Shown: positions 11,950 through 22,029 of the stretch, one piece after another
Position numbering within the stretch: the stretch's first letter is position 1
Layout of the letters: the number at the start of each line of letters is the position of its first letter
DNA from: Methanobacteriota archaeon
GTDB taxonomy: Archaea; Thermoplasmatota; Poseidoniia; Poseidoniales; Thalassarchaeaceae
DNA: 35,358 nucleotides
Assembly (NCBI GenBank): GCA_002712285.1
Contig: PATC01000027.1
Coordinates: 1 to 35,358, forward strand
Direction: 5' to 3'
The notes under the pieces: model-generated
What the model was told of the DNA's origin: nothing
The model's database searches: none
Seen by the model: only the letters and a program-made list of their open reading frames with translations
Program-made: the position numbers and the translations under genes

Positions 11950-13740
11950 ATGCGACCTATGGTTCTGCACCCTTTCCTTCGGGATGGAGCTGTAGAAGCA
12001 CGTGCTTACCAGCTAGAAGCCGTCAACGCATGCTTGGCAACATCTACCCTCCTAGTTCTCCCTACAGGCATGGGAAAGACTGCCGTTCAATGGATGACGA
12101 TTGCCGAAACGCTCCGAACTAAAGATGGAAGAGTCATACTTGTTGCACCGACAAATGCCTTGGTTGATCAGCAACATCGTGATCTTCAACGAATCCTAAT
12201 TGAGAATGGTGACAATAAGATTGGTAGACTGACGGGATCCGTTCCTCCTGCAAAACGAAAAGACGAATGGTGCATGAATCGAGTCACTGTAGCTACACCT
12301 CAAGTGGTTCGAAATGATGCAATTAAAGGAACCTTAGACCTATCTGAAATCGATTTACTCGTAGTTGATGAAGCACATCGTGCCACCGGGAATGCCGCCG
12401 TAGCCCAACTAGGAGATCTGTTGATGATGGCGAATCCCGAAGCACGGATCCTTGGAGCAACAGCCTCGCCAGGGTGGAATGAAAGTAGTGTAGAGGAAGT
12501 ATGCGAACGACTTCATCTCTCAGGGATTCATGCCAGAGGTTCCAAAGAGACGATGTTGGAACCATATGCCTCAAACCTCGAGGTTGAAGAAATCAAGGTC
12601 CCCGTCCCAAAAGAACTCAGAGAACTCGTAAAACCCCTAGAAGGATGGTTGGAAGCTATCGTACAAAGAGAGCGTCGTTTAGGCCATTATGTACGAAGTG
12701 GAACGATTACAATGGGAGGATTGAACGAAGCAATGCGCAGGGTACAAGCCGCAATTGCTCGAGAAGAACGAATTGCATATAGGAGTGCTGCGGATCTTGG
12801 AGTATCTATCCGCTTACTGATACTCAGTAATTTGCTAGTTTCACAAGGTGTTGCGGCTGCCCGTGAATCTCTAGGCCGCATGGAAGAACGAGCAAAATCA
12901 AAAGGGAAAGAGGCACGATCAATTCAGGAATTTATTTCAGATCAACGAATTCGCCACCTCTCCAATCGATTGGATACAATGGATGAAATCCATAGCAAAG
13001 TATCGTTCACACGCCGTGTAGTACGTGATGAAATTCGACGGAATCCCGATGGTAAAACCATCGTATTCGCTAATTACCGTGATACTGTATCTGCCATAGT
13101 TGGCCATCTCCAAGATATTCCAGGTGTTCGAGTTACACCCTTTATCGGGCAGACAAATCGTGCTGGACAATCGGGTATGAACTCTACTGAACAAATTGCT
13201 CGACTTAACTCGTTCCGAACAGGCGAATACAATGTCCTTGTTGCCACCTCGGTTGGAGAAGAAGGTCTAGACATCCCACGTGCCGACCTAGTCCTATTCT
13301 ACGAACCTGTTGGAAGTGAGATTCGAACGATTCAACGAAGGGGGCGGACAGGACGTCAAGACGAAGGGATGGTGTATGTGCTGATTGCAGAGGGGACTCG
13401 TGATGAAGGGACACAAGCATCGGCTCTCCGAAGAGAAGAACGAATGCTTATCGCAATTCAACGTGTAAGACGAAGACGTCGAAACTTCAGTCCAGATCTG
13501 GCTCTACTCAGTCCATTTGATGTAAGAATGAAAGAGGATAAACACACGGCAAACGAGTTTGTTCTTGATGAGCGCACTCGATTGACACGAACAATGGAAA
13601 CAGTAGATGATACACCAATCAATGATGTAAAAGACGATTCAAAATTGAATATTGTAGATATTCCCCTTGAACAGCGGCGCCCACAAGGGCAAAGCGGATT
13701 AGAATCATGGACCAAAGAACATGGTGACAAAAAAATCTGA
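11950..13740 (+). CDS. Hef/MPH1/FANCM-type superfamily 2 helicase; no nuclease domain present
   Basis: Walker A LLVLPTGMGKTAV, DEAH box VVDEAHRATGN, motif VI QRRGRTGRQDEGMVYVLIAEGTRDE; ends at 596 aa with no ERCC4 nuclease ERKxxxD motif. Confidence 0.9.
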   Translation: MRPMVLHPFLRDGAVEARAYQLEAVNACLATSTLLVLPTGMGKTAVQWMTIAETLRTKDGRVILVAPTNALVDQQHRDLQRILIENGDNKIGRLTGSVPPAKRKDEWCMNRVTVATPQVVRNDAIKGTLDLSEIDLLVVDEAHRATGNAAVAQLGDLLMMANPEARILGATASPGWNESSVEEVCERLHLSGIHARGSKETMLEPYASNLEVEEIKVPVPKELRELVKPLEGWLEAIVQRERRLGHYVRSGTITMGGLNEAMRRVQAAIAREERIAYRSAADLGVSIRLLILSNLLVSQGVAAARESLGRMEERAKSKGKEARSIQEFISDQRIRHLSNRLDTMDEIHSKVSFTRRVVRDEIRRNPDGKTIVFANYRDTVSAIVGHLQDIPGVRVTPFIGQTNRAGQSGMNSTEQIARLNSFRTGEYNVLVATSVGEEGLDIPRADLVLFYEPVGSEIRTIQRRGRTGRQDEGMVYVLIAEGTRDEGTQASALRREERMLIAIQRVRRRRRNFSPDLALLSPFDVRMKEDKHTANEFVLDERTRLTRTMETVDDTPINDVKDDSKLNIVDIPLEQRRPQGQSGLESWTKEHGDKKI

Positions 13741-13742
13741 AA

Positions 13743-14603
13743 TCAGGACCCGATCACTTTGACTCTAGTTCGTAGTTGTGCAAGACGTGTGTTCAAGTGG
13801 CCGAAAGAAAATGCCAGCATATCTGTGAAATGAATCACGGGAATACTGGTATCTAATCCGGTAATCCTTGATGCCTTTACTTGATAGATATCTAGGACTG
13901 CATGGGATAGATTACAGATGCTCACGAGTAATTCAGCACCTTCATCGACTGCTTCGGATAAGACACCAGCCGCCTGTTTCAACGCAGTAGACTCCTCGGA
14001 AAGCAGGCTTGGAACGCCTACACTCTGGGTCCTACTGACTAGAGAAATTGGGGTGCCACCGATAACCTCGATTACATTTTCAAGATAATTCGGAAGGAAT
14101 ACGTCATCTGACCCACAAGCACCCTTTCGCTGGATATTGGGCCCATAGTATCCTGAAATTTTGAAGTCGAGAGGATTAACCACTTTTTCTTCGAGTTTTT
14201 CAAGACCGATATCTTCGACAATGACATGCATTAGGTGACGAACTTTCATCTCACCTGAGAACTGCATATTACATGTAGACTCCAATGTACGATTGACTTT
14301 AGCAAGCAAATCCGGATTACGCCGAAGTTCTTCCAAATCCTCACACAAGTTGCCTGCTGTTGCAGCGCATGGTGTTACGATTTCAAGACCCAATGCTTCA
14401 GCCATTGCGAATGTTCTAGCGTTCAAGGTCAATTGTAACCGACTATTAGCTTGTCGAATTATCCCGGCACCACAACTAGTAGCTCCTTCAAGAGGCACAA
14501 GATCAATTCCAAGTGAACGGGAGATTAATGGAATTGTATCCTCAACTTCCATAGCACTACTGTGAGCAACATTCCCAGGGTGATAGGCATAGGAATTGGG
14601 CAT
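13743..14603 (-). CDS. HdrB/SdhE-like CCG-domain protein with most Fe-S cysteines lost
   Basis: YAYHPGNVAHSSAMEVE...LGIDLVPLEGATSCGAG (family: YYPGC...CCG), YYGPNIQRK (family: YYGC), TQSVGV (family: CCG), ICNLSHAVLD (family: CPLC..NLD). Confidence 0.75.
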   Translation of the reverse strand: MPNSYAYHPGNVAHSSAMEVEDTIPLISRSLGIDLVPLEGATSCGAGIIRQANSRLQLTLNARTFAMAEALGLEIVTPCAATAGNLCEDLEELRRNPDLLAKVNRTLESTCNMQFSGEMKVRHLMHVIVEDIGLEKLEEKVVNPLDFKISGYYGPNIQRKGACGSDDVFLPNYLENVIEVIGGTPISLVSRTQSVGVPSLLSEESTALKQAAGVLSEAVDEGAELLVSICNLSHAVLDIYQVKASRITGLDTSIPVIHFTDMLAFSFGHLNTRLAQLRTRVKVIGS

Positions 14604-16855
14604 CAGAAACCACTTCCAATTTCATTGTAAATGGCGACTACTTCGTGATGATTATTCACTGGTGTATTGAACTGTTTAGGCATCTTACCCACTCCAGCAG
14701 GAGGGGCAATCATGCCTAGAAGCCCATTGAATACGCGCCCACCAGTTCGAGTGAAACCTAGCATCATCCTAGCAGAAATTCCTGAAGTGAGATTACTGAT
14801 CAAACCAATTGGGCCCAATACTTGGCGATAAATCACTGCATCATTCACCTTTCCACTCATTTTGACACTCCAACAATACCACCATACATGCTTCCCATGA
14901 CGTGAATCAGAAAAGGCACCATCTCTCAAAACAGATGTTTTGGCATCGAGCATGTGGCTTGAAATTTTCATACCAAGTTCGCCATTTCTTGAAATTGATG
15001 ACAAATCTGTTTCTGCCTTTATGCCGCCCACAGATGAAAGAGATTTCATGTGTTCAATTCTGTTCTTGTCTGACGTACGAGGGTCGGTAACTCTGGACCA
15101 AAGTGAAACAACATTTGAGGGGCCGATGTATGATTCATTGTAAGGCAAAGTATCTGAGAAGGAATCGACAAGTAAAGCGCTAGTGAAATCACGAATTTTG
15201 TGTATTTCAGTTGCTTCACTAGAGGACATTGACCCGATTACTCCTTGAGATAACTCTATGCCATCTCTAGTAGCACCATGGAACCAAGGCTTGAGAGATG
15301 AACGCTTGATATCATGGATGGATAAATCTACTACAAGATCTCGAATTACTTCTCCGCCTGTAAGAGGTTCAATGACTATTTTCCAAGAACCATTAACCGA
15401 GGATGCAATATCAGAAATCTTGGTTAATCCAGGTAATACATTACGTCCATTAACTGAAATTACGGTACATGGATCATTTGCTGGCCCATCACGGAAGGTA
15501 AGGGAGCCGTCTTCAGTGGCTTTCACTGTTCGAAGAAGCTGGAGAACCGACATATTTCCAGGGAGAACGCATGCCCACTCATCAGTTCCACTTTCTCTCT
15601 CTAAACAATCGTAACGAAATACTTGTACGTTGACTTGAAGCTCCTCTGACTCGAAGTTAGGGACGACAAAGCCATCATCTCCTTCAACAGCAACATCGTC
15701 TCCACCACTAAGTTCCTCAATGATGAGTTCAACCATTTCTGCTTGGAAGGTACCATTTCCATCTACTGCGGACATATGAGCTAGAGCTGATTCAGCCCAT
15801 ATAGCCGAGGGTGCGTCGTAATCGACATCACAATCCACACGGTCGACTAGTCTTGTTCCACCTAACTCTTCAAAGCGCTTATCCCATTCCTTACCAGATT
15901 CACAGAAGAGTTCGTAACTTGTATCTCCGAGTGCACATACGCTGAAATGAGTTTGGCTAAGTGATGGAGCACCGTCTGCATTAGCAGCAATCCAAAGTGC
16001 CTCTGCATTGTCAGGCTGCTCACCCTCGCCCCACGTGGAACAAACAATCAGGACGCGAGACATTCCTGATAGAGATGATACGTCAAATCCATCCATATCG
16101 TGCACTTTGGCATCAAGACCGTATGCCGAGGCACGTTTGCTAATCTTCGCAGCCAAGCCTTCAGAATTACCGCTCTGCGAACCGAATAGGATGTGTAATG
16201 ATCGATCACCCTCATGCATGAACACCTGGGTATCACTTCCTCCTTGAGCAGTAACCTTCGAACCGGCATCATCGGATGCGGGAGCGGGCGTATCTGATGC
16301 ATCTAATGACCCACCGGATGATACAAATTCAGAGATAGAGGACACTTTACCTTCTTGGAATACTCCATCTCCATCTACTGCTGCCATTCGTGGAAGGGCC
16401 ATTTCAGTCCAAGTGGCTGCAGGTTTGTCATAATCCACATCACAATCGACTCTATCCAGTAGCCTCTTACCGCCTAACTCTTCAAAGCGCTTATCCCATT
16501 CTTTACCAGATTCGCAAAACAACTCATAGCTCGTATCACCTAGAGCACAAACAGAAAAATTTGTTGAACTCAAGGCAGGAGCGCCATCTCCATTGGCAGC
16601 ATTCCAAAGATCTTCAGCATTGTCGGGTTGCTCGCCTTCACCCCATGTAGAACAAACGATTAGAACACGTTTCATTCCAGAAAGTGAGGCTATATCGACA
16701 TCACCCATATCATGAACTGTAGATTCTAAGCCATAGGAAGAGGCTTGCTTACCAATCTTAGACGCCAAGTCCTCTGAATTACCGCTTTGAGAACCGAAAA
16801 GGATGTTCAGAGTGCGGTCACCACTCGTCAGAAACTGAACCAAACCATCTGACAT
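14603..16855 (-). CDS. Fusion protein: two tandem CysJ/CPR-type flavodoxin domains plus SdhB-like domain lacking Fe-S ligands
   Basis: GSQSGNSE, STWGEGEQPDNA and LGDTSYELFCESGKEWDKRFEELGG occur twice; C-terminal VFRYD...SLTFRDG...VNGR...IVIEPLTGGEVIRDLVVD...SYIGPSNVVSLWSRVTDPRT is SdhB-like. Confidence 0.85.
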   Translation of the reverse strand: MSDGLVQFLTSGDRTLNILFGSQSGNSEDLASKIGKQASSYGLESTVHDMGDVDIASLSGMKRVLIVCSTWGEGEQPDNAEDLWNAANGDGAPALSSTNFSVCALGDTSYELFCESGKEWDKRFEELGGKRLLDRVDCDVDYDKPAATWTEMALPRMAAVDGDGVFQEGKVSSISEFVSSGGSLDASDTPAPASDDAGSKVTAQGGSDTQVFMHEGDRSLHILFGSQSGNSEGLAAKISKRASAYGLDAKVHDMDGFDVSSLSGMSRVLIVCSTWGEGEQPDNAEALWIAANADGAPSLSQTHFSVCALGDTSYELFCESGKEWDKRFEELGGTRLVDRVDCDVDYDAPSAIWAESALAHMSAVDGNGTFQAEMVELIIEELSGGDDVAVEGDDGFVVPNFESEELQVNVQVFRYDCLERESGTDEWACVLPGNMSVLQLLRTVKATEDGSLTFRDGPANDPCTVISVNGRNVLPGLTKISDIASSVNGSWKIVIEPLTGGEVIRDLVVDLSIHDIKRSSLKPWFHGATRDGIELSQGVIGSMSSSEATEIHKIRDFTSALLVDSFSDTLPYNESYIGPSNVVSLWSRVTDPRTSDKNRIEHMKSLSSVGGIKAETDLSSISRNGELGMKISSHMLDAKTSVLRDGAFSDSRHGKHVWWYCWSVKMSGKVNDAVIYRQVLGPIGLISNLTSGISARMMLGFTRTGGRVFNGLLGMIAPPAGVGKMPKQFNTPVNNHHEVVAIYNEIGSGF
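15743..16210 (-). repeat. Flavodoxin domain copy 2 of an intragenic tandem duplication (copy 1 about 16358-16816)
   Basis: Long identical protein blocks (RVLIVCSTWGEGEQPDNAE, FSVCALGDTSYELFCESGKEWDKRFEELGG, DRVDCDVDYD) recur in both halves. Confidence 0.9.
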
Positions 16856-18621: not shown

Positions 18622-21600
18622 TCAGAGGCCCTGCTGATCTAACCACTGTTGACCATAATGCTGCCATTGGTCCATTGTCCAACCATCAGGTAGACCACCC
18701 TCTGGGAGAGGAGGTCCAGATGGGGCTGGCGCTTGTGAAGTAGGAGAAGGCGCATGAATTGTCTCAACTGGTGCAGGAGTAGGGCTGCTGAATGAATCCT
18801 GTACGGGTGCCATTGTCGGAGCAGACATTATATCAGGAGCAGGTGCGATTTCACGGTACTTGCCCTCAAGAGAAGTCTGGTAATCAGCAAGACTGACAAC
18901 CTCATCCTCAATCTGTTGAGTTCCCATAATAATCCGAACAAAGACAAAGAGTAGAGCAATGACAACAAGAACACCAAAAATAACTCCAATGATGCCGACA
19001 ATACCTGATCCAGAAGCCGTGTCCTCGGCTTCAGATTGCATGCGTATGAAGGTGATTTCTTGTCGATATTCTACAGTGTCGAGGTCAGCGTCTATCTCAA
19101 GAGTGAAGTTTCGTGTAATCTCCGCAAAGGGCAGATTGAGTAGAGCTACTTCGGATGGCTCTATCTCAACTGTGATAATTCGCCGCTGATCAGGGCCAAG
19201 TTGGAATTCACGATCTGATTCGACAATACGTGGATTAAATCCGTAGGCTGTCATCTCATTTGCGCTGACATCTAGGCGAATCTGCTGAGACACAGTTGGA
19301 TGCCGATTATGAAGTTCAAATGTTAGGGTTTCTGTCTGTATAGCTCTATCAATCACCATGGGCCCTTGGCCAACTACATTGATCCAACCCTGTGTTCCAA
19401 CATCAAACACAGCAGAACCAGTATCTGAAGGAGCATCCCCTGTGCCATCATAATTTAATGAGGTACCTGTCAAACTTAATGTTTGGTCGCCTTGTGTACC
19501 TTCGACGAAAGCGTAACAGAACGTCACATTGTAGGAACTTCCCGGTGCAACAACAGATGTCTCCGCAGGAGATAGAGGTTGACCATTGATATCACGGAGT
19601 TCGACTGTGATGGTATCTGGATGATCGACAGCGATAGAAAAACGATCATCCATGTTACCGATGTTGGTAATCTCCCACTTACCTGTACGACAGGAATCGC
19701 CTGGAGAAAAAGTCTGGCCGCTCATATCAAGATCCTCTACAATCAGTTCATAGGTAGGGGGAACCGTGAGACGTATCTGCTGCACAACATCATAGTTTGG
19801 ATCTGACTCAGAGGTTGCTGTCACCTCAATCAAGTAGATATCTGGACGAAGACCGTAAGGCATTGGCAGAATTAGATACACTGTAGTATCACCACCGAAA
19901 GCATCGAGTAAACCTGTAGAAATAATGGACAAAGTCGCATCAAGTCTGTTGTCTGCTAATAGACTGAGATTGTAGTTCTCATCGCTATTACCGTTATTCA
20001 CAAGAGTCATCTCGACCTGAACCATCTGACCATTAGATGGAGCTGTAACATCAGCAGTCATTGCAGAAATACTCAGATCTGACACAGAAGGAACCTCAAT
20101 CTGAATCGACCAAGTTGCCTGTGCACTAGCAGGAGGAACTGCATTTGTCAGCAATGTAATTTCAACAGGGCCTGGGACAGCGTCCACTGGGGCGGTAAAC
20201 TGTGCAATGACGTCAACAGTGACACCACGTGGCACCATTATACTAGTCGCCGGTGCACCAGAGGAGTCAAACCATTCTAAGTTTGAATTCGACCATAAAG
20301 GATCATTGAAGTAGGCTCCAAAGGTCCAACCAACATCCTCATTTCCAGTATTCTGCAAAGTCATCGTTACATTGCCTGTTGCAGCTGGTGGGAGAGTTAG
20401 TGCAGGTGTTACAATATTCGCTTGACGGAAACGAGCCGAATAGGATGACACAACATTGACGTCATAATGGCGCTGGCCCTTGTTTTGAGCGTTAACAGAA
20501 TCATTTAGCCAGATAGACCAGTTGACTGTCTCTACATTTGAACCAGCAGGAATGGAAAGATTCACCCAGAACTCAGACGTATTTCCTGGATCGACAGGCA
20601 TCATTGTCACAGTGTTATCAAAGTCCACTGGATCTGTGGAATCTATCCTTATTGGGAACTGAGACATCCAAGAAGAGTTGTCCACCTTACTATGGATAGT
20701 GGGTGAAACACTGACATAACCGTTGTTTGTCATTGTGCAGCGAATTGAGGGAGGACTTGGATCAGCAGGTATAACATTGAACACGCCATTCGCAGGTTCA
20801 TCACAATCAAGATCGATTGTATATTCATCGACACGCTCGATACCGAAGAGCATTAGATCGTCTACATGAATACCTTGAGTTGCATCGTTGTTATCCGAAC
20901 TGAAATGGAATGCTAATCCATAATTAGAGTTGGGGAATACATCAGTCATGTTCCAGATAACAGGAGTCCAATCACCGGATGTTGCTCCAATCGTTGCTTC
21001 AGAAAGATTGAGGCGTTCCTGAGAAAGGCCAGTGTTAGCTTCAAGGGAGAGTTCGTCTCCTTGACCCATGGTACCCCAAGCTTGCACACGTGCCTGCAAA
21101 GATACGAACTCGAAACCCTTGACTTGGACCGTGCAGATGTATATGCCGTAAGCGTTTGAAAGAGTACCATCATTTTGACCATATCCTAGAGAATCGAATC
21201 CATCGTTACAGTTCTGATTCGCATCCGGCCATGCCCACCACATACGGTCATTGCGACTGCTGATGTATACACCCGAATCACTTGCAATCTGTAGATGTCG
21301 GTTGCCCTCCGCCGAAGTAGAGGAAGAAAGCATTTGGAATTGGCCTTCATCCTTTATTGAGAAGTCGTTGCCCACATCGTAACCTGCTCCAACCCACATA
21401 GGGACAGAAAGAGCATTTGGGCAATCAACTGACCCATCGCCATCTACATCACCACATAGTGAGTTCTCAACACGATCGTGGTAGAGAGCAACGATGATAT
21501 TCTCATCGTATACATCATTCACTTCGTTTCCATCGAGTACACCTGCATCAACGCTACCACGGAGAATGTATCCTCCTCCAAGAGTCCCATCATCCGAAAG

Positions 21601-22029
21601 ATGACTATGAGCCGCCATAGGAGTCCAATCCACAGACTCGACAGTAGATTGTCCACCCGCAAGAGACAGATTCACTGTCCAAGATTCAACTACGAAACCA
21701 ATCGGGTGCCAGACCTCCATGGTACCGACAGCATCAGCCGGGTCTAGACGAGTACCAGCATTTCGGAATTCAAACGTAAGAGAAATGGTCTCACGTACGT
21801 AGATGTAATCGACACTGTTACCATCTGGCTGAGTAAACGTACTAGCGGCAGATGATACATTTCCGAAACTGATGTCACTTACTGTGAAATCAACCAGCGC
21901 TCGGCCCGAGGTGTCAAAGGTCTCAATTGGAGAATCAGAGGGTGATGGAGGCGCAAGCAATGGGCCCACAGACATAGCGACCAAAGTGATGACCAACAGA
22001 AATGCACTCAAGCGACCCATCGACACCAA
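18622..22029 (-). CDS. Large secreted/membrane-anchored protein with CARDB-like beta-sandwich repeats, C-terminal TM and cytoplasmic tail
   Basis: N-terminal signal-like [19 protein letters not shown]; repeated [24 protein letters not shown]-type segments; [30 protein letters not shown]; tail ending [21 protein letters not shown]. Confidence 0.75.

Follow-up and report, generated by a model that had tools for sequence, protein, structure and literature searches.

The closest described relatives of the gene pair reported here are the type-E succinate dehydrogenases/fumarate reductases (SdhABE; MFR, TfrB), with which it shares the same two folds, the same gene order, overlapping genes and a C-terminal extension of SdhB that is common to the pair and to SdhB-SdhE systems. 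Outside the order Poseidoniales (Marine Group II, MGII), a major group of ocean archaea, its nearest relatives are intact sdhA-sdhB-sdhE operons, in which sdhA adjoins sdhB and both SdhB and SdhE have complete ligand sets. By contrast, the Poseidoniales pair, hereafter sdhB'-sdhE', has no adjoining SdhA, carries ferredoxin (Fd) and/or flavodoxin (Fld) fused ahead of SdhB', and has lost every SdhB ligand and, except in a minority of copies, most of the CCG ligands. SdhE' also resembles, by profile and fold, the HdrB of the CoB-CoM heterodisulfide reductase (HdrB/HdrC), but it lacks the ligands of the non-cubane cluster in one or both CCG domains, and no HdrA gene was seen near the sdhB'-sdhE' locus. 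The flavodoxin domains are of the type found in CysJ, although, unlike CysJ and other diflavin reductases, the protein has no FAD/NADPH reductase domain and has SdhB'/SdhE' in its place.

In phytoplankton, flavodoxin is known to take the place of ferredoxin when iron is low (PMC10287166, PMC5322553). At the Poseidoniales locus, too, an FMN carrier replaces an iron-containing one, with the difference that the swap concerns a domain within one gene at one locus, has occurred at least nine times (by parsimony on the SdhB'/SdhE' tree) and is accompanied by cluster loss in the partner domains. Finally, a Helicobacter pylori protein of 514 aa whose function is unknown (PDB 3kwl) resembles both the SdhB' and the SdhE' half in a single chain, and was matched in fold searches by the models of window:14606-15655 and L054:3951-5831. 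This protein, possibly HydE, is bacterial and is likened to SdhB'/SdhE' by fold; it may be a bacterial parallel of the pair.

The window, i.e., the whole stretch of 35,358 nucleotides that was analysed, is contig C29 of an archaeal genome of 1.70 Mb in 51 contigs. The features of the pair are collected in Table 1. The start of sdhE' overlaps the stop codon of the sdhB' gene directly upstream, and the pair is present at nearly every locus fetched. In one genome (G005) the two genes are naturally fused, so that flavodoxin-flavodoxin-SdhB' and SdhE' make up one open frame of 997 aa (L054:2841-5831).

Table 1. Positions in the window of the sdhB'-sdhE' pair and of its domains and invariant residues.
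Feature	Position	Strand	Basis
750-aa protein: flavodoxin - flavodoxin - SdhB' (Fe-S-free, SdhB-like) - conserved C-terminal region	14603..16855	-	ORF, Pfam, NCBIfam
First flavodoxin domain, aa 18-142, FMN motifs present	16430..16804	-	Pfam
Second flavodoxin domain, aa ~222-345	15821..16192	-	Pfam
Former [2Fe-2S] domain of SdhB, Fer2_3 match at aa 410-512, 4/4 Cys ligands lost	15320..15628	-	
Former [4Fe-4S]/[3Fe-4S] helical domain of SdhB, 8/8 Cys ligands lost	14936..15319	-	
C-terminal region of SdhB', highly conserved, homologous to the tail of SdhE-adjacent SdhB proteins	14606..14935	-	
SdhE', 286-aa SdhE/HdrB-like partner with two eroded CCG domains	13743..14603	-	
Order-wide invariant Cys79 of SdhE', once a CxxC ligand of CCG1	14367..14369	-	
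Order-wide invariant Cys230 of SdhE', once a CxxC ligand of CCG2; invariant His234 follows	13914..13916	-	

The SdhB ancestry of the 750-aa protein is documented at several levels. NCBIfam PRK05950 matches aa 406-606 (E 3.7e-16), TIGR00384 matches the SdhB-like part (E 5.1e-14), and the Fer2_3 match (E 9.8e-11) lies above the Pfam cut-off. A PDB search with a profile built from 15 homologs returned 24 matches, all SdhB/FrdB, the best being the SdhB chain 6lum_B (E 1.9e-15). Both SdhB domains are confidently modelled by AlphaFold (in the SdhB-like part of the window protein, pLDDT ~80-95 for residues 1-120 and ~78-91 for residues 140-240), and with this model all Foldseek ranks from 1 to 32 were SdhB/FrdB chains (best E 6.8e-13; TM ~0.81 by target, up to 0.83). 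PDB profile, AlphaFold and Foldseek thus agree on the SdhB fold, a beta-grasp plus a helical domain, and the SdhB scaffold is therefore real. The initial annotation had read aa 408-640 (15634..14936) as SdhB-like and had named HHpred, Foldseek and AlphaFold as checks; its coordinates were right, and profiles, PDB and fold all give SdhB/FrdB. The homology runs past aa 640, into the C-terminal extension common to SdhE-adjacent SdhB proteins, and this non-ligand region is the best conserved segment of SdhB'.

SdhB' is not the genuine SdhB of the organism, since an intact SdhCAB operon, with its own SdhB (L055 5464-6231), exists elsewhere in the same genome on contig C25. The SdhA of this genome sits with that SdhB and not beside SdhB', whose fixed neighbours are a chaperonin, SdhE' and a helicase. 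A dedicated SdhA-like partner was also considered and set aside: several PF00890 proteins exist, none of which was found linked to the locus.

None of the Cys ligands for the [2Fe-2S], [4Fe-4S] and [3Fe-4S]/[4Fe-4S] clusters is retained in SdhB', and this loss extends to the whole family. When 115 Poseidoniales homologs were aligned with four genuine SdhB proteins, Cys occurred in 0 or 1 of the 115 at each of the 12 shared Cys columns; two of these columns hold Ser and Glu in all 115, and most others have hydrophobic or variable residues in place of Cys (F, I, L, A, P). In an alignment with the genome's own intact SdhB, 48 of 48 homologs lacked Cys at the SdhB Cys positions, save 10 with Cys at one position, which the larger alignment does not support. 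The ligand loss described in the initial annotation is therefore shared by the homologs in both alignments and is not a peculiarity of this copy. The single Cys which it took as left over from the 2Fe-2S motif, in NDPCTV, lies next to an ancestral ligand column, not in one, and is not conserved; across the family that adjacent column has T/S. Outside the SdhB-like core, that annotation passed over the two flavodoxins, the exchangeable N-terminal module, and the SdhE-like partner encoded downstream with the same kind of ligand loss, and it proposed no function.

By sequence search, the SdhB' domain is found in 185 of 195 Poseidoniales genomes, including all 34 near-complete ones, and spans 21 genera in two families, while it is absent from about 20 genomes elsewhere in the class. 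Matches in other parts of the phylum had far lower scores, and the ones inspected were genuine SdhB; phage records searched for sdhB'/sdhE' gave no match. Pairwise dN/dS is 0.03-0.07, an approximate range in which dS is high in some pairs. The gene order thermosome, sdhB'-sdhE' pair, convergent helicase is the same throughout, and the flanking genes (chaperonin, surface protein, helicase, ribosomal genes) name neither donor nor acceptor. In the window the helicase is of the DEAD/ResIII type (11950-13740, +), and its open frame is ~600 aa long in some relatives and ~850-930 aa in others. A 1135-aa protein at 18622-22029 (-), weakly CARDB-like and with a hydrophobic stretch towards its C-terminus, is probably a surface protein; its homologs adjoin the chaperonin gene in many relatives.

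A decaying pseudogene, a binning error or a sequencing error would account for the loss of ligands and for nothing further. Relaxed selection, stops and patchy presence were not found: the listed matches of the order contain no stops, and the dN/dS values, the order-wide presence, the occurrence in single-cell genomes and the fixed synteny reject this explanation, to which we give practically no credence. The earlier suggestion of repurposing rather than decay, for which dN/dS had been named as a check, is thus upheld by the SdhB match, the family-wide ligand loss, the presence in 34/34 near-complete genomes and the low dN/dS. The two genes are most probably (probability about 0.93) a selected, Fe-S-free relic of an SdhB-SdhE pair.

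SdhE' has an HdrB-like fold with two CCG domains: it matches HdrB by profile (TIGR03288, E 7.4e-37; HdrB structures in the PDB, E 5e-50) and by fold (TM ~0.85 by target). In the window protein, both C...CC...CxxC ligand sets are eroded. Across the family about 10 of 110 proteins (~9%) keep the first set and none keeps the second, 4/5 ligands of CCG2 being lost everywhere in the order. CCG1 is complete in ten loci, which belong to genera g7, g11, g17, g19, g21 and part of g16, and is eroded elsewhere. The sole invariant Cys residues are the first of each CxxC (Cys79 and Cys230 in the window). Genus g7, in which the CCG1 site is kept, also has a NuoF-type Complex1_51K domain (G017:C20:103143-103625; L119), which was not in the five other genomes searched.

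The module ahead of SdhB' takes the form Fd-Fld, Fld-Fld or Fld alone, and every full-length copy examined contains a redox module, whether Fd, Fld or both. In a Cayman deep isolate, ferredoxin is joined straight to SdhB' without flavodoxin (L013:1108-2520, also L155), a form that may be real or may reflect an assembly collapse. The flavodoxin domains of the 750-aa protein contain the FMN-binding loops SQSGN, STWGEG and GDTSY and are predicted to bind FMN. The first domain is missing or swapped for a [4Fe-4S] ferredoxin in many relatives, and the second is the more widely conserved. The N-terminal flavodoxins seem to have several origins, some lying near the second flavodoxin and others nearer to the genome's CysJ, as far as can be judged from short domains with limited support. 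Among the copies that can be scored, Fd is present in 9/9 with a complete CCG1 vs 24/49 of the others (Fisher 0.0036, a test that ignores relatedness).

The two ends of SdhB' tell different histories. The tree of its front part agrees with taxonomy, and a grouping of the CCG1-complete copies as one clade is rejected for it (AU p 1.7e-55), whereas the tree of its C-terminus plus SdhE' unites these copies across both families with a support of 99.9. In genus g16, congeners hold opposite forms of the pair (L037 and L089 vs L083 and L088). Here, L037 resembles its congener L083 up to alignment column ~315, within sdhB', and thereafter L092 of another genus, the identities to L092 vs L083 after the breakpoint being 88-100% vs 45-58% in SdhB' and 80-93% vs 29-65% in SdhE'. 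This breakpoint pattern and the conflicting trees indicate that the C-terminus of SdhB' and SdhE' moved as one cassette. Judged from the sequences, cluster-bearing and cluster-free C-terminal cassettes are exchanged by recombination, with a clear breakpoint in one genus, and spread by recombination makes up at least part of the history of the CCG1 state. Two independent CCG1 losses in the two families, as inferred by parsimony on the joint tree, are weakened as an explanation by the conflict between N- and C-terminal trees and by the breakpoint; convergent constraint could add to the CCG1-complete grouping, and the trees therefore fix no number of independent losses. Co-transfer as one cassette suggests that the C-terminus of SdhB' and SdhE' interact. 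In a model of the naturally fused orthologue the SdhB' half is poor (mean pLDDT 51.6) and the interface unreadable.

Regarding the electron-transfer context, a POR-family 2-oxoacid:ferredoxin oxidoreductase was found in 6/6 genomes searched and the 49-kDa subunit of complex I in 8/8, NuoF being found in 1/6. The pair holds the sole Fer4_13 match above the cut-off in 5/6 Poseidoniales genomes, the sixth, that of the window, having none, and the sole Flavodoxin_1 match sits in this unit in 4/6. On the basis of POR, of complex I with little NuoF, and of the sole Fer4_13 and often sole Flavodoxin_1 match, a tethered-carrier adaptor between 2-oxoacid oxidation and a putative acceptor is proposed. 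We consider it somewhat likelier than the contrary that the demetallated SdhB-SdhE pair has been repurposed as the platform on which a tethered low-potential electron carrier docks, with donor and acceptor inferred. A survey of MGII reported complexes I and II and an orphan RnfB, an RnfB-annotated gene occurring in many families (PMC6336850), so that the pair is not the sole possible route for ferredoxin electrons.

The two genes are best explained as the remains of the SdhB-SdhE relay of a type-E (sdhA-sdhB-sdhE) enzyme, from which the three SdhB clusters and the second CCG cluster of SdhE had already disappeared in the common ancestor of Poseidoniales. Comparison with the relatives, in which sdhA adjoins sdhB, shows that the position of the donor flavoprotein SdhA was taken by the fused ferredoxin and/or flavodoxin, the protein scaffold and the subunit interface presumably being retained. 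The adaptor mechanism itself is offered tentatively, at a little below even odds. In this scheme, the N-terminal Fd/Fld would receive electrons from the 2-oxoacid:ferredoxin oxidoreductase and hand them to the FMN of the second flavodoxin, from which they would reach an acceptor docked on SdhB'/SdhE', such as a complex I that lacks the NADH-input module; the passage from FMN to acceptor is deduced from the architecture. The unit of the window species would have no iron requirement. The Fd/Fld exchanges, and those between cluster-bearing and cluster-free forms, could represent iron sparing in surface seawater, a motive suggested by the kinds of change and by the phytoplankton replacement (PMC10287166, PMC5322553).

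Other functions are conceivable for the same scaffold. SdhB'/SdhE' might take no part in electron transfer and serve in assembly, membrane anchoring or regulation, with Fd/Fld as ordinary carriers kept near another enzyme. The absence of any conserved redox ligand from SdhB', the conservation peak in its non-ligand C-terminus and the likeness of both halves to 3kwl all fit such a role, which we nevertheless regard as rather unlikely, because each full-length copy examined has Fd or Fld and two Cys of SdhE' are invariant. These same residues, one per CCG domain and kept even where other ligands are lost, could instead form a redox pair reduced by FMN, so that the SdhE' pocket would act as a thiol/disulfide reductase, a metal-free echo of HdrB, which cleaves a disulfide between its two clusters. 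No thiol-substrate gene is found near the locus, and this function appears improbable. A further step down in likelihood is the binding of Fe-S clusters or another metal through changed ligands, such as the Ser/Glu columns, constant in 115/115 homologs, or the invariant Cys230/His234: the hydrophobic or variable residues at most other columns are unfit for a cluster site, which makes this a very improbable reading.

No description of the sdhB'-sdhE' pair was found in the literature, in a search that was not exhaustive; likewise, nothing relevant was found on cluster-free SdhB or on MGII with SDH plus Hdr, nor did the literature searched contain an SdhB-type subunit that has shed all its clusters order-wide and under strong selection. 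The pair is a concrete candidate that is open to testing. The graded series, in which outgroups have both CCG clusters, some copies a single one and most copies none, forms together with the repeated Fd/Fld swaps a natural record of an iron-sulfur relay losing its iron. The near-complete loss of iron-holding parts from two subunits that stay under strong selection and are joined to small exchangeable carriers suggests an iron-rich electron wire rebuilt as a nearly iron-free one. In its broadest form, which is speculative and on balance doubtful, the proposal is that Poseidoniales would possess a single modular redox complex that recombines, occurs throughout the order and has had the entire Fe-S wire of SdhB-SdhE deleted in favour of tethered FMN. 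For each of its two ends, lineages would swap a version that uses iron with one that does not (Fd vs Fld; cluster-bearing vs cluster-free SdhE' cassette). If this is true, such exchanges would adjust how much iron one important step of electron transfer costs.
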